Assembly: GCA_019637115.1 (NCBI GenBank)
Contig: JAHBWH010000066.1
Span: 1 to 38,844, forward strand
DNA: 38,844 nt
Origin: Myxococcales bacterium
GTDB lineage: Bacteria > Myxococcota_A > Polyangia > Polyangiales > Houyiibacteriaceae
Reading direction: 5' to 3'
Position numbers and translations under genes: made by a program. This document shows, one piece after another, positions 19,201-23,921 of this stretch (position 1 is its first letter; every line of letters starts with the position of its first letter). The notes beneath the pieces were generated by a model. That model was not told where the DNA came from. It was given only the letters and a program-made list of their open reading frames with translations, and did no database searches.

Positions 19201-19697
19201 CGGTCGACCCTCTGACGGGGTTCGGCGCACGACCCGAAGTCCGTACGGGTTGCCGTGGATGATCGGCTCGGAGGTCGTTGGCCGGGCCGACGAAGGACCA
19301 TGCCGATGCCGATTCGAGGAGGTCGGCCAGCGAGATCCGCATCGAGGGCCGGAGACACCCGGAACCAACGTCGGGTTGGCCACGCGTTCACCCCGCCGCG
19401 GGCCGAATCGCGGCCACCCCGTAGGCCTCCGTCGGAAGGGGCCCGAAGGGAGAGGGGCGAAGCTCGCCGATCGTGTCGCTCCCCGCCGCTGGATCGCCTG
19501 CTTCAGCAATCACCCGCATGGGTCAGGAGGTGACGCGCACCCTCACGGCCATTAAAGGTCATAGAGTACCTCAATCACCCTTGATTCGAGGGTCGGTTGC
19601 GCCAAGTGCCCCGCGTTCACAATTGTGCTTCCCGCCCCACGTCGTGGGTGTAAAGTCCCCACTCCATTCGCTGGAGACGAAGGGAAGAGCAACGACC
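19201..19697. other. Intergenic region upstream of the secreted propeller protein
   Basis: 497 bp without a credible gene. The part nearest the downstream gene (about 19540-19660) is markedly less GC-rich than the surroundings (for example ATTAAAGGTCATAGAGTA), as expected for a promoter region. A TGTAAAGT near 19649 could be a -10 region but no matching -35 box is clear. No tRNA or other structured RNA was recognised. Confidence 0.5.
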
Positions 19698-21389
19698 ATG
19701 ACACGCCGGACCAGCCGACTGCGACTCGACCGCACGTTCCCAGGCAGGCAGGCTCCGCGCACGCGCGTGGTGCTGACCTGCGTGGTCACGGCTGCGCTTT
19801 CACTGGCTGTGGCGCGTCACGCCGCAGCACAGAGCTCGACATGTGTCTCGGGCCAGGGGCTGCAGCATCAACAGGTGTGGTGGTCGGGCAACAGCGGCAC
19901 GAAGTATCGGCTGGATTTCTCGAGTGGCGCCCCAACCCTGTTCGAGTCCGGGCACGCCCAGTCCCCGTCGTTCGAGGGTACGGCGGTGTACACGAACGCG
20001 TCAGGTCAGCTCCTGCTCTACTCCGACGGCGTCCGAGCGTGGCGGGGGAGCGATCACGTGGAGATCGCGGCCGGCCTCCCGGGTGATCCCTCGGCGACGG
20101 AGGCCGCCTTGATCAGCCCCGTGCCGGGCGGCGATCCCCTCGACGACTTCTATGTCTTCGGGAACAGCGCAAATACGACGAACGGCACGGTCGCCTATGT
20201 GCGGGTGACCGTGAGCACGGGTATGGCGTCGGAGCGTGTCGACCTCTCCGTCGGCAACACCGGAGAGTCGCTCGCCGCGGTCCCGCACGCGAACGGGAGC
20301 GATGTCTGGATCTTGACGCTTCGGAACAACCCCGACCCGACCCGACCGATCGAGCTCGCCGCGTTCCTCGCCAGCCCCGCTGGCGTCGCGACGACGCCCG
20401 TCTTGACGGAGCTCCCCGACCTCGGTGCGGCGACGAGCCGCGCGAACCGCGGCAACCTCAGCTTCCATCCGCCCACGAACACGCTCGTTCTCGGCAATTT
20501 CGGCGTGGGGTCGGGTGTGATCCTGACCGCCGCGTTCGACGCCTCGGCGGGGACCATCTCCGACGTGGTCACCCGCGCCACGGGGGCGGTCGGCTACTCG
20601 TCGGCCCTATCGCCGTCGGGGCGATATCTGTACTTCACGAGCGGTCTGGAGGGGTTCCAAGGTACGGCCCGCGTGCTCGATCTCGAAGACCTCGAGGCGG
20701 CGGCGATGGACATCACGTTCCCCGGCGTCGGAGCGGTCGGAGGCTGCCGCCTCGCGTTCGATGGCCGGGTCTACTATTCGAGCTTTGGTGGTGGATCGCT
20801 CGGCGTCGTCGAGACTCCCGACAGCCCGACCGGCGCGTTCGCCTCGTCACTCTCGCTCGGAACGGGACGCGGCTCGTACCACCTGCCCAACCAGTCGTTC
20901 CCGGCGTGCGCCGAGGCGGGGTGTGCTTCTGACGAGGACTGCGACGACGGGACGTGCGACCTCGCGACGCGCGAATGCGTGCCCAACCCCGCGTGCGTCG
21001 ACAGCTCGGAGTCCGGGACCGACGAGGGGTGCGACGAGGCGGCCCCGCACTGCTCGAGCGAAGCGCGCTGCGAGGTCTGCATCGCCGTGGGCGAGGGAGT
21101 CGACCTCGGATGCGATGTCGCGCGGCCGCGTTGCACGATGGACGGCGCGGGCGGGTTCGTCTGCGTCGCGGACGACGCTGGCCCGTCGGACGCTGGCCCT
21201 TCGGATGCTGGGTCGTCGGACGCGGGGTCCTCACTGCCAGACGCAGGACCGACGGATGCTGCCGTCGCCGACGCGGGCGCCCCGGAGATCATCGATGAGG
21301 GCGGCTGCCGCTGCGCCACCACGGAGGGCTCTCCCACTGCGCTCCTCGTGCCCTTCGCGGTGATGCTGCTGCTGCGCCGCCGACGATGA
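19698..21389 (+). CDS. Secreted beta-propeller-like protein with Cys-rich region and MYXO-CTERM-like sorting tail
   Basis: 563 aa. A long basic N-region and hydrophobic core (residues 1-45, ending HAAAQ) form the export signal. Residues about 50-395 contain repeated strand patterns resembling the propeller found in some secreted proteins (GQLLLYSDGVRAW, DDFYVFGNSAN, YLYFTSGLEG). A cysteine-rich segment (about 400-490, CASDEDCDDGTCDLATREC) precedes a DAG/SDAG linker. The end is GGCRC, a hydrophobic helix and RRRR, the layout of MYXO-CTERM signals processed by myxosortase for surface display. ATG at 19698 with AAGGGAAGAG 8 bp upstream. Single-gene unit with a strong hairpin after it. Function unknown. 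Confidence 0.8.
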   Translation: MTRRTSRLRLDRTFPGRQAPRTRVVLTCVVTAALSLAVARHAAAQSSTCVSGQGLQHQQVWWSGNSGTKYRLDFSSGAPTLFESGHAQSPSFEGTAVYTNASGQLLLYSDGVRAWRGSDHVEIAAGLPGDPSATEAALISPVPGGDPLDDFYVFGNSANTTNGTVAYVRVTVSTGMASERVDLSVGNTGESLAAVPHANGSDVWILTLRNNPDPTRPIELAAFLASPAGVATTPVLTELPDLGAATSRANRGNLSFHPPTNTLVLGNFGVGSGVILTAAFDASAGTISDVVTRATGAVGYSSALSPSGRYLYFTSGLEGFQGTARVLDLEDLEAAAMDITFPGVGAVGGCRLAFDGRVYYSSFGGGSLGVVETPDSPTGAFASSLSLGTGRGSYHLPNQSFPACAEAGCASDEDCDDGTCDLATRECVPNPACVDSSESGTDEGCDEAAPHCSSEARCEVCIAVGEGVDLGCDVARPRCTMDGAGGFVCVADDAGPSDAGPSDAGSSDAGSSLPDAGPTDAAVADAGAPEIIDEGGCRCATTEGSPTALLVPFAVMLLLRRRR

Positions 21390-21435: not shown

Positions 21436-21945
21436 TCACCCCTCGTCGTCGCCGTGGCCATGGCCATGGCCGTGGGGACCGTGCGCGTGTCCGTGCTCGA
21501 TCTCCTCGGCGGTCGCGTCGCGGACCTCGAGGATGGTGCACTCGAAGTGGAGCTCCTCGCCGGCGAGCGGGTGCTCTGGCGTCATGATGATCGTGGGGCC
21601 CTGGACCTTCTTGACCCAGAGCGGGATCATCTCGCCCTTCGGGCCTCGGCTGACGAAGCGCATCCCCGCCTCGACGTGCGCGTCGGGGGGGAAGTTGGAG
21701 CGCTGCATCCGGATGTCCTTGAAGCCCTGCCTCTCGCCGTAGCCCTCGGCGGCCGGGACCACCGCCTTCACCACGTCGCCGACCTGCTTGCCCTCGAGCT
21801 GACGCTCGAGGCCGGGGACGATGTTCTGTGCGCCGTGCAGATAGAGCAGCGGGTGCTCCTCGCTCGAGCGATCGATCTCGGTCCCCTTCGAGTCCGTGAG
21901 GACGTAGTGCATCTTGGCGACTTTGCCGTCGGCGATCGTGGTCAT
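21436..21945 (-). CDS. FKBP-type peptidyl-prolyl isomerase, SlyD-like
   Basis: 169 aa. The FKBP half (DGKVAKMHYVLTDSKG at the start, NIVPGLERQLEGKQVGD) flanks an inserted IF-type chaperone flap (about 75-125, AAEGYGERQGF onward), and FKBP sequence resumes before the His-rich tail (HGHAHGPHGHGHGHG), the plan of SlyD. SlyD-type proteins catalyse prolyl isomerisation, act as folding helpers and bind nickel through the His tail. The ATG at 21945 is preferred over a TTG at 22002 because the family begins there. No hydrogenase or nickel genes are nearby, so a metal role is unproven. Confidence 0.9.
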   Translation of the reverse strand: MTTIADGKVAKMHYVLTDSKGTEIDRSSEEHPLLYLHGAQNIVPGLERQLEGKQVGDVVKAVVPAAEGYGERQGFKDIRMQRSNFPPDAHVEAGMRFVSRGPKGEMIPLWVKKVQGPTIIMTPEHPLAGEELHFECTILEVRDATAEEIEHGHAHGPHGHGHGHGDDEG

Positions 21946-22067: not shown

Positions 22068-22451
22068 ATGCGAGGGACGACGTCGACGAAGAAGCGTTTG
22101 CGGCTCGCCGTGGGCTCGGCCCTCGTCATCGCGCCCGCGTCGCTGCTCGCGTGCGGCCCCGAGGCAGCCGAGGCCCCGCCGCCCGTGGAGCCGATGACGA
22201 ACCCTGGCGTCGAGGTCATCGAGCCCGTCGAGCCCGTCGAGCCCGTCGAGCCCGTCGAGCCAAGCCCGAACGTCAGCCCCTTCGACGACGAGGTCGAACC
22301 AGAGGCCGAGGTGGGCGAGCCCACGTCTCCGAGCACGATGTCGACAGCGACCACGACGGCGCTCGACCGTCCGCCCACCGTGAACGTGCCGGCGTCCCCG
22401 CCGCTGCCGACCGCGAACCCCGTCCCGACGAGATCCGAGAGGCCCCGATGA
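22068..22451 (+). CDS. Small Pro/Glu-rich lipoprotein A (first of three sisters)
   Basis: 127 aa. A basic start, a VGSALVIAPASLLACG signal with lipobox LLAC, then a disordered tail containing EPV repeats (four GAGCCCGTC 9-mers at 22221-22256) and ending with VNVPASPPLPTANPVP. The ATG at 22068 follows a G7 run that acts as the ribosome-binding site. Its stop overlaps the next start (ATGA at 22448-22451). The signal core VGSAL and the VNVP and PLPTANP motifs recur in the next proteins, so the genes look like paralogues. No family is recognised. Probably membrane-anchored and working with the ferritin-like protein of the same operon. Confidence 0.75.
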   Translation: MRGTTSTKKRLRLAVGSALVIAPASLLACGPEAAEAPPPVEPMTNPGVEVIEPVEPVEPVEPVEPSPNVSPFDDEVEPEAEVGEPTSPSTMSTATTTALDRPPTVNVPASPPLPTANPVPTRSERPR

Positions 22452-22726
22452 CACGCACCCGAACGCTCCGATTCACCGTCGGCAGCGCGCTCCTCTGCGC
22501 GCCGCTCACCCTCGCCGCGTGCGGCGGCGGCAACGAGGAGGTCCCCGACGAGCCGCACGTGAACGTGCCGCCCGATCCGGGCTCCGGAGGCGAGGTCCCG
22601 GAAGACGGGATCGACTGGGCCGTCACGAACCCTGGACCGCCCGACGACCCCGAGCCCACCGTCAACCCCGGCCCAGGCGATCGGCCGCTACCGACCGCCA
22701 ACCCCGCGCCCCCGGAGACGCCATGA
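22448..22726 (+). CDS. Small Pro-rich lipoprotein B (second sister)
   Basis: 92 aa. Signal VGSALLCAPLTLAACG with lipobox LAAC, then a Gly/Pro/Asp-rich tail carrying VNVPPDPG, TVNPGPGDRPLPTANP and a final PPETP. It starts inside the stop of the previous gene (ATGA) and its own stop overlaps the next start (ATGA at 22723-22726), so translation of the set is coupled. No domain is recognised; its likely role is as a surface or periplasmic tether. Confidence 0.75.
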   Translation: MTRTRTLRFTVGSALLCAPLTLAACGGGNEEVPDEPHVNVPPDPGSGGEVPEDGIDWAVTNPGPPDDPEPTVNPGPGDRPLPTANPAPPETP

Positions 22727-22956
22727 GCGCACGGATCGAGCGGCGCGGCCGAACACTCGGCGTGATGGTGGGGAGCGCGCTCCTCGTCGGCGCCGCCGCC
22801 TGTGGGCCGGACGAGCTGCGCGTCAACGTGCCCGCCGAACCCGTCGAGACGATCAACGTCCCTCCCGACCCACGGCCCGTCGAGGAGGAAGCGCCGGCGC
22901 CGGACGAGGACGAGCGTCCACCACGCGTGAACCCCGGACCGACCGACGACGAATGA
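22723..22956 (+). CDS. Small Pro/Glu-rich lipoprotein C (third sister)
   Basis: 77 aa. Signal VMVGSALLVGAAACG with lipobox AAAC, then an acidic, proline-rich tail with VNVPAEP, INVPPDPRP and VNPGPTDDE. It overlaps both neighbours by ATGA (start at 22723, and stop shared with the ferritin-like start at 22953). The shared VGSALL signal core and VN(V/P) tail motifs show descent from the same ancestor as the two upstream genes. Function unknown. Confidence 0.75.
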   Translation: MSARIERRGRTLGVMVGSALLVGAAACGPDELRVNVPAEPVETINVPPDPRPVEEEAPAPDEDERPPRVNPGPTDDE

Positions 22957-23921
22957 GCGGGCCCTCGAACGAGGCGCGCGGCGACGCCGAGGCGCTGCTG
23001 ACTCCGACCACGACCAAGCTCGGCTCGATGCATCGGAACCAGGTGCATCGCGCGCCCTGGCCGGACTTCGACGCCTTCGACGTCGCGCGCTACGACGTCG
23101 AGCTGCGGCGACACGCCGCGTGGCATTGGATCTCGCGCGCGCAGGCCGAGCACGGCTCGGTGCACCAGTTCAGCGCCGTCACGCACGCGCTCACCGAGGC
23201 GCGCGCCCCGGTCGAGCTCCTCGGCGCGCTCGCGCGCTTGCTCACCGACGAGGTCCGCCACGTCGAGCTCTGCGCGCGGGCCGCGAAGGCCTTCTACCCC
23301 GAAGGAGACGCCGCCTTCTTCCGGTGGCGCACGCCGCGCGCCCCCTGGCCCGACGCCCCAAGCGTCGACGCCGACCGGCGCGAAGAGAGCGAGCTGCGCC
23401 TCCGCGGCTGGGCAGCGCGGGCGATCCTCACGGCGTGCGCGCTCGGCGAGACCCTGAGCGAGCCGATGCTCGAGGCGATCGTCCTCGTCGCGACCGATCC
23501 GCTGCCTCGCGCGTGCGCCGAGCAGATCCTGAAGGACGAGCGCTTCCACGGCCGCTTCGGCTTCGAGGCGCTCGCGGTGCTGGTACCGACCCTCGACGAC
23601 GCCGAGCGCGACGCGCTGCAGACGCAGCTCTCGCGCGCGCTCGCCGGCTTCGAGCGGACGACGTGCGGGAAGGTTCGCGTCGAAGACCTCGCGGGCCGCG
23701 AGCTCGAGATCACGGCCCCCGAGCCCGGCGCGCCGCCGAACCTCGGCACGCTCACGGAGGAAGAGTTCGCCGCGATCTTCTACGCGACCCTCGAGGCGCG
23801 CATCTTCCCCGCGCTCGAGCCGCTCGGCCTCGACCCGATGCGCGCCTGGGCCGAGCGCGGCCGCTTCCCGGCGGCGCGGCGAGAGGCGAGCGCCGAGGCC
23901 CGCGCCACGACCGCGGACTGA
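22953..23921 (+). CDS. Ferritin-like diiron-type four-helix protein
   Basis: 322 aa, no signal peptide, so cytoplasmic. The metal-ligand pattern of ferritin-like proteins is intact: E66-H67 (QAEHGS), E100-x2-H103 (TDEVRHVEL), E166 (GETLSE) and E196-x2-H199 (KDERFHG), each in a predicted helix. The N-terminal 50 residues and the region after 230 are outside the bundle. Family members store iron, oxidise substrates or act as oxygenases; which applies cannot be told from sequence. It is the last gene of a four-gene, ATGA-coupled operon behind three small lipoproteins. It ends 51 bp before the convergent nuclease gene. Confidence 0.75.
   Translation: MSGPSNEARGDAEALLTPTTTKLGSMHRNQVHRAPWPDFDAFDVARYDVELRRHAAWHWISRAQAEHGSVHQFSAVTHALTEARAPVELLGALARLLTDEVRHVELCARAAKAFYPEGDAAFFRWRTPRAPWPDAPSVDADRREESELRLRGWAARAILTACALGETLSEPMLEAIVLVATDPLPRACAEQILKDERFHGRFGFEALAVLVPTLDDAERDALQTQLSRALAGFERTTCGKVRVEDLAGRELEITAPEPGAPPNLGTLTEEEFAAIFYATLEARIFPALEPLGLDPMRAWAERGRFPAARREASAEARATTAD

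Follow-up and report, generated by a model that had tools for sequence, protein, structure and literature searches.

Three small lipoprotein genes (LP1, LP2, and LP3) and a gene for a ferritin-like diiron protein (FLP) form an operon in the 38,844-nt stretch of DNA analysed here (the window), and FLP-lipoprotein pairs of this kind recur across the Myxococcota. On balance, we favor the reading that FLP is a cytosolic oxygenase, which would modify a motif in the tails of its partner lipoproteins before these are exported, lipidated, and anchored.

The operon and its lipoprotein precursors

All four genes lie on the + strand. LP1 (22068..22451) encodes a lipoprotein precursor of 127 residues, with its lipobox cysteine at position 29 (codon 22152-22154) and the tail motifs TNPGV, PNVSP, VNVP, and PLPTANP; LP2 (22448..22726) one of 92 residues, with C25 (22520-22522) and the motifs VNVP, TNPGP, VNPGP, and PLPTANP; and LP3 (22723..22956) one of 77 residues, with C27 (22801-22803) and the motifs VNVP, INVP, and VNPGP. 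They are followed by FLP (22953..23921), a protein of 322 residues and of the diiron oxygenase type. As the first-pass annotation had stated, the genes are chained by three ATGA overlaps (LP1/LP2 at 22448..22451, LP2/LP3 at 22723..22726, and LP3/FLP at 22953..22956, all +), and the third-position GC content (0.90, 0.86, 0.82, and 0.94 for LP1, LP2, LP3, and FLP) supports coding for all four. No obvious Shine-Dalgarno sequence occurs within 20 bases upstream of the FLP start; its translation thus probably depends on coupling to LP3. None of the four proteins is recognised by any Pfam or NCBIfam model.

The lipoboxes claimed for all three lipoproteins are present, as read directly from the sequence (those of relatives were called by a rule-based scan), and each cysteine follows a leader of the signal-peptide type, a feature also of DAG-RiPP precursors. 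The signal core VGSALL, proposed to be common to the three, is found in LP2 and LP3, but reads VGSALV in LP1. The tail motifs are likewise shared in part: VNVP occurs in all three proteins, but VNPGP only in LP2 and LP3, its place in LP1 being taken by TNPGV, and PLPTANP only in LP1 and LP2. Pairwise similarity is clear between LP2 and LP3 (E 2e-10) and lower between LP2 and LP1 (E 7e-5), values to be read in the light of the low complexity of the tails; the leaders are also similar when compared alone. The pattern [VTIHA]N[VP][PGS] occurs eight times in the tails, against 0.43 expected in shuffled ones, and none of 20,000 shuffles scores as high, although the exact odds are flattered by the pattern having been framed after the tails had been seen. 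In the tail class of the window, up to five copies of the motif occur.

A comparison of six FLP-partner lipoproteins from two species of the genus finds the leaders alike (z 3.5-12), but little similarity between most of the tails (z mostly 1-5), which also vary in length. The partner lipoproteins combine a conserved core motif with an otherwise variable tail, as is also seen in DAG-RiPPs. The AlphaFold model of LP2 contains no secondary structure (pTM 0.14).

Ligands and fold of the ferritin-like protein

FLP carries the full ligand set (E, ExxH, E, ExxH) that had been attributed to it: E66 (codon 23148..23150), E100xxH103 (23250..23261), E166 (23448..23450), and E196xxH199 (23538..23549), all on the + strand. 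Variation of these residues among relatives, which had been named as a ground for dropping the proposal, is almost absent: the ligands are kept in 93 of 93 relatives, except for E196, which is kept in 91, and E66, E100, H103, E166, D195, and H199 are invariant in an alignment of 84 rows. No signal peptide is seen in FLP.

The AlphaFold model of FLP is confident (pLDDT 91.6, pTM 0.88) and aligns with a Z score of ~17 to phenylacetyl-CoA epoxidase (PaaA), to aldehyde-deformylating oxygenase (ADO), and to the hydroxylase of methane monooxygenase (sMMO), and with 16.7 to the azoxy synthase VlmB. PaaA and ADO are the best structural matches, extending over 200-221 residues, but share only ~13-17% identity with FLP and occur in other gene contexts. 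Carboxylate-bridged diiron oxygenases are marked by their ligands on a four-helix bundle; FLP has both, with Z scores of 15-17 to known members. Since helical bundles give high Z scores in general, these values place the fold among diiron oxygenases without naming the reaction, and Foldseek E-values are modest (best 4e-3). The modelled fold matches the diiron-oxygenase type of PaaA, ADO, and methane monooxygenase rather than that of a storage ferritin.

At the level of sequence profiles, the window FLP has no significant match in Pfam or NCBIfam, and PF11583 (AurF) gives no hit even at E 1; among 84 relatives, 32 match PF11583 weakly, at E 0.01 or better, and a profile built from the 84 finds AurF (E 1.6e-6) and ADO (E 8e-6) among solved structures. 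FLP thus resembles the AurF/VlmB-type N-oxygenases in its E, ExxH, E, ExxH ligands, its helical-bundle fold, and a weak profile similarity. The substrates of these enzymes are small or carrier-bound amines, unlike those proposed here for FLP, and we know of no lipoprotein partner for any of them.

Two other roles for FLP are to be weighed against this evidence. A role of FLP in iron storage, peroxide scavenging, or oxygen sensing, with the lipoproteins sharing its operon by coincidence, is in our view very unlikely. The membership of FLP in the ferritin superfamily and the weak matches of 15 of the 84 family members to Pfam Rubrerythrin would fit such a role, but fold and profile indicate oxygenases, and the many paralogs per genome, each with its own class of lipoprotein, are unlike a housekeeping protein. 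Storage ferritins and bacterioferritins were rejected as candidates, as FLP has 322 residues and extra helices beyond the bundle, compared to ~160-180 residues in a cage subunit, and lacks a match to any ferritin family; fold, profile, and paralog pattern disfavor a storage role and a rubrerythrin role alike. The second possibility, which we consider rather unlikely, is that the substrate of FLP is a small molecule or lipid, with the lipoproteins serving outside the cell as carriers, sensors, or product anchors and the operon being shared by way of a common pathway. Operon partners do often belong to one pathway, and the close structural relatives PaaA, ADO, AurF, and VlmB use small or carrier-bound substrates; however, no other pathway gene was seen to recur across the classes in a coarse comparison of neighboring ORFs, the tail of LP2 is modelled without structure, and the tails bear short, sometimes repeated motifs instead of binding domains. 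Small-molecule chemistry would also not predict that different FLP clades keep different motifs, as is described below.

Recurrence and classes of the pair in Myxococcota

The FLP family, surveyed first in 76 relative genomes and then in 282 genomes of Myxococcota, occurs in 194 of the latter, with up to 27 copies per genome. The genome of the window has four FLPs, of which the other three also adjoin small lipoproteins, though of other kinds. A lipoprotein-like ORF, as called by a rule-based detector, ends just before or at the FLP start in 96 of 144 cases, compared to 6/144 on the antisense strand, 13/138 downstream, and 5/89 far upstream. FLPs are thus regularly preceded by lipoproteins in other Myxococcota, as had been suggested for checking, and relatives are not mostly devoid of them; the pairing of a cytoplasmic diiron protein with membrane-tethered tails, on which the first-pass annotation had remarked, is strongly supported by this recurrence across the phylum. 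The overlap with the FLP start is 4 nt long in 61, and 1 nt long in 9, of the 110 upstream partners accepted. Where the upstream partner is missing, there may instead be a WGPPVPP lipoprotein downstream (five loci) or a lipoprotein with the MopE motif. When these are added, together with partners that are slightly further away or on the other strand, one that is truncated, one without a lipobox, and two found by eye, ~128 of 146 FLPs have a partner, a figure whose last step was made partly by eye and without a matched control; the remaining ~18, about one in eight, have none that is visible.

The number of lipoproteins per FLP ranges from one to about four, so that the fixed ratio originally proposed does not hold. 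In the window class there are three in the window and in two other genomes (G001 and G006), two in G034, and one each in G009 and G015. A locus of another tail class (L046) has three or four lipoproteins further upstream, and at yet another, three WGPPAPP proteins precede FLP in tandem, paralleling the 3:1 arrangement of the window. At L155, the WGPPAPP protein beside FLP has a signal-like leader but no lipobox, which suggests, on the sequence of this one protein, that lipidation may not be essential to the pairing.

The association can also be recovered from the motif. The DNA pattern for WGPPAPP has 75 hits in the 282 genomes, against ~25 for the reversed control, and at least 21 of the 75 lie beside a listed FLP, where we estimate that well under one would do so by chance. 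In a test on 12 genomes, 16 of 19 hits lay beside an FLP, but these genomes had been picked for having the pair, and we therefore rely on the larger search. The GP/WGPP clade, used as query against 84,980 species genomes, finds 80 loci, all in records titled as myxobacterial or as loosely named bins (deltaproteobacterial, proteobacterial, or simply 'bacterium'), cultured Nannocystis, Polyangium, Minicystis, and Sorangium included; a motif-bearing partner adjoins FLP at 43 of the 49 loci not seen previously. That the adjacency merely reflects incidental synteny, to which the one FLP in eight without a visible partner might point, is scarcely credible in view of the position controls, the motif-specific DNA search, the agreement of classes with clades, the independent loci, and the excess over controls across the phylum; chance adjacency is rejected on the position controls and the WGPPAPP search.

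Each partner lipoprotein consists of a leader, a lipobox, and a low-complexity tail with a short motif. There are at least five classes of tail, and every class goes with an FLP clade of its own: VNxP-like (the class of the window), GNLxPP, GPxxPP, WGPPxPP, and WxTTK. The proline-rich tail noted at the outset is therefore a property of the window operon, but not a general rule, as it represents one class among these. In the WGPPxPP and GPxxPP classes, the motif occurs in a single copy, 3-20 residues from the C-terminus. A universal target residue was sought by eye and rejected, since none is common to all classes, N being present in some and G in others. When 81 FLPs typed into five classes are placed on a tree of 146 FLPs, four changes of class suffice, the minimum possible, the classes having been defined by eye from the tails and independently of the tree. 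Any functional partners passed on together by vertical descent would also produce such a match, which is thus evidence for a stable unit but not for a particular chemistry. The leaders predict the class moderately across distant members, with the nearest neighbor being right in 35 of 71 cases compared to 15 by chance.

Two clades have partners of a different appearance. In one (L036, L038, L044, L049, L053, and L149), the lipoproteins carry MopE-motif repeats, which are putative metal-binding elements, and several end in NGMLDxD-like sequences; this likeness to MopE-type proteins (PF11617) is limited to that clade and does not extend to the tails of the window. In the other, a divergent FLP clade (L004 471-1379 and L093), the repeat W(E)xCC...CFCP.GA.CNYG occurs two to three times in the lipoproteins.

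Candidate modification of the tails and its precedents

FLP is a protein of enzyme type without a visible signal peptide, encoded beside lipoprotein precursors. As these leave the cytosol, contact between enzyme-type protein and precursor is to be expected only ahead of export, and we infer that FLP modifies the precursor beside which it is encoded. As a carboxylate-bridged diiron oxygenase of the cytosol, it would oxidise a short motif in the low-complexity tails post-translationally; in the window, the target would be roughly [V/T/I]-N-[V/P]-[P/G]-P, repeated in LP1, LP2, and LP3, which are made just before FLP. Candidate reactions at the motif are hydroxylation, desaturation, and N-oxidation. 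Sec would then export the modified precursors, with lipidation of the lipobox cysteine and cleavage by signal peptidase II to follow, so that the tailored tails come to be displayed outside on a membrane anchor.

Four features, taken together, are those expected of an enzyme and its substrate: an oxygenase-type protein, precursors composed of a leader and a fast-changing, low-complexity tail with a conserved motif, the match of motifs to clades, and the tight coupling of the genes. In the nearest case that has been demonstrated, DybH, an iron enzyme of the cytosol unrelated to FLP, modifies the precursor DybA, which has a lipoprotein signal, at a C-terminal motif before lipidation (PMC12636315). 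The best explanation for the FLP system, somewhat more probable than its negation, is that it forms a diiron counterpart of the DAG-RiPPs, which are made by unrelated iron enzymes. Points that count against it are the ~18 FLPs with no visible partner, the failure to find one residue shared by all tail classes or a recurrent maturation gene nearby, the modest Foldseek E-values and missing family match of the window FLP, and the moderate conservation of leaders between distant members. In both systems, a small precursor for signal peptidase II is encoded beside an iron-dependent oxidative enzyme of the cytosol, predicted to be such in the case of FLP, and the tail conserves a short motif while the remainder varies; some DAG-RiPP relatives have a type I signal instead, for which L155 offers a comparison. 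The DAG-RiPP enzymes described so far are MNIOs (DUF692), to which FLP is unrelated by fold and ligands, and the motifs are different, those of the window being repeated and free of cysteine; for the FLP system, covalent modification is a prediction from the genes. The authors of the DAG-RiPP study, who mined the MNIO family, call their approach applicable to other enzymes (Chen et al., 2025; PMC12636315). Bufferins offer a second comparison, as ribosomal peptides that are modified by an iron oxidase and in part carry lipoprotein signals, ~16% of Buf2 precursors being predicted lipoproteins; they differ in their MNIO enzyme and in a cysteine-containing, copper-binding core (Microb Genom 2025, PMC12452194). 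A literature search, mostly outside subscription journals, found no description of the FLP-lipoprotein pair.

The genes around the operon bear on a further role, namely that FLP is a cytosolic chaperone or metal-loading factor, which binds leader or tail without covalent chemistry. A SlyD-like FKBP prolyl isomerase (PF00254) with a His-rich tail, encoded at 21436..21945 (-), is transcribed divergently from the operon and adjoins it, as do related genes in G006, G009, and G015, in both orientations. The presence of this isomerase in four related genomes, the tight coupling of the genes, and the putative metal binders among the partner lipoproteins (those with the MopE motif) would all suit a chaperone; against it stand the invariant diiron ligand set, the oxygenase-like fold, and the tails of the window, in which acidic residues are the only obvious candidates for metal binding. 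We judge it quite unlikely. The SlyD-like gene is not found beside the operon in G001, of the same genus, and was on that account dropped as a core part, which it probably is not; the juxtaposition of a prolyl isomerase and proline-rich tails may have a meaning or be fortuitous.

Candidates for a second modification come from the GNLxPP clade, where a membrane protein with an HTTM domain is encoded at six loci, downstream and on the same strand in three (L116, L117, and L142) and in other placements in the rest (L059, L124, and L158). HTTM is a Pfam family that includes the vitamin K-dependent carboxylase; two of the proteins were compared to Pfam, one scoring above the cut-off (E 3.4e-7) and one just below, and by sequence they hint at a second protein modification beside GNLxPP FLPs. 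Many WGPP-clade pairs have a related LysR-type regulator nearby, on either strand (for example L035, L062, L130, L197, L205, and L214). A coarse all-against-all comparison of neighboring ORFs revealed no exporter, protease, or other gene for maturation that recurs beside the pairs. Elsewhere in the window, at 19473-21389 (+), a Cys-rich protein ends in a hydrophobic stretch followed by RRRR, which may be akin to a MYXO-CTERM sorting tail.

Extended to the phylum, these considerations raise the possibility, which we hold more tentatively, at slightly less than an even chance, that Myxococcota possess a large and so far undescribed class of lipid-anchored proteins with post-translational tailoring, the maturation of each being the task of a dedicated FLP that recognises a class-specific motif, with a second enzyme (HTTM) acting in one class. 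The class-specific motifs tell which peptides match which enzyme, and the presence of the pair in the cultured genera Nannocystis, Polyangium, Sorangium, and Minicystis makes the proposal directly testable. If it is true, lipidated peptides tailored by iron oxidases would extend beyond the single enzyme family now known, and these would be, to our knowledge, the first ferritin-fold oxygenases to act on the tails of ribosomally made proteins. A whole phylum would then have an unnoticed layer of surface-protein modification, carried out by enzymes of a family for which no action on peptides is known.
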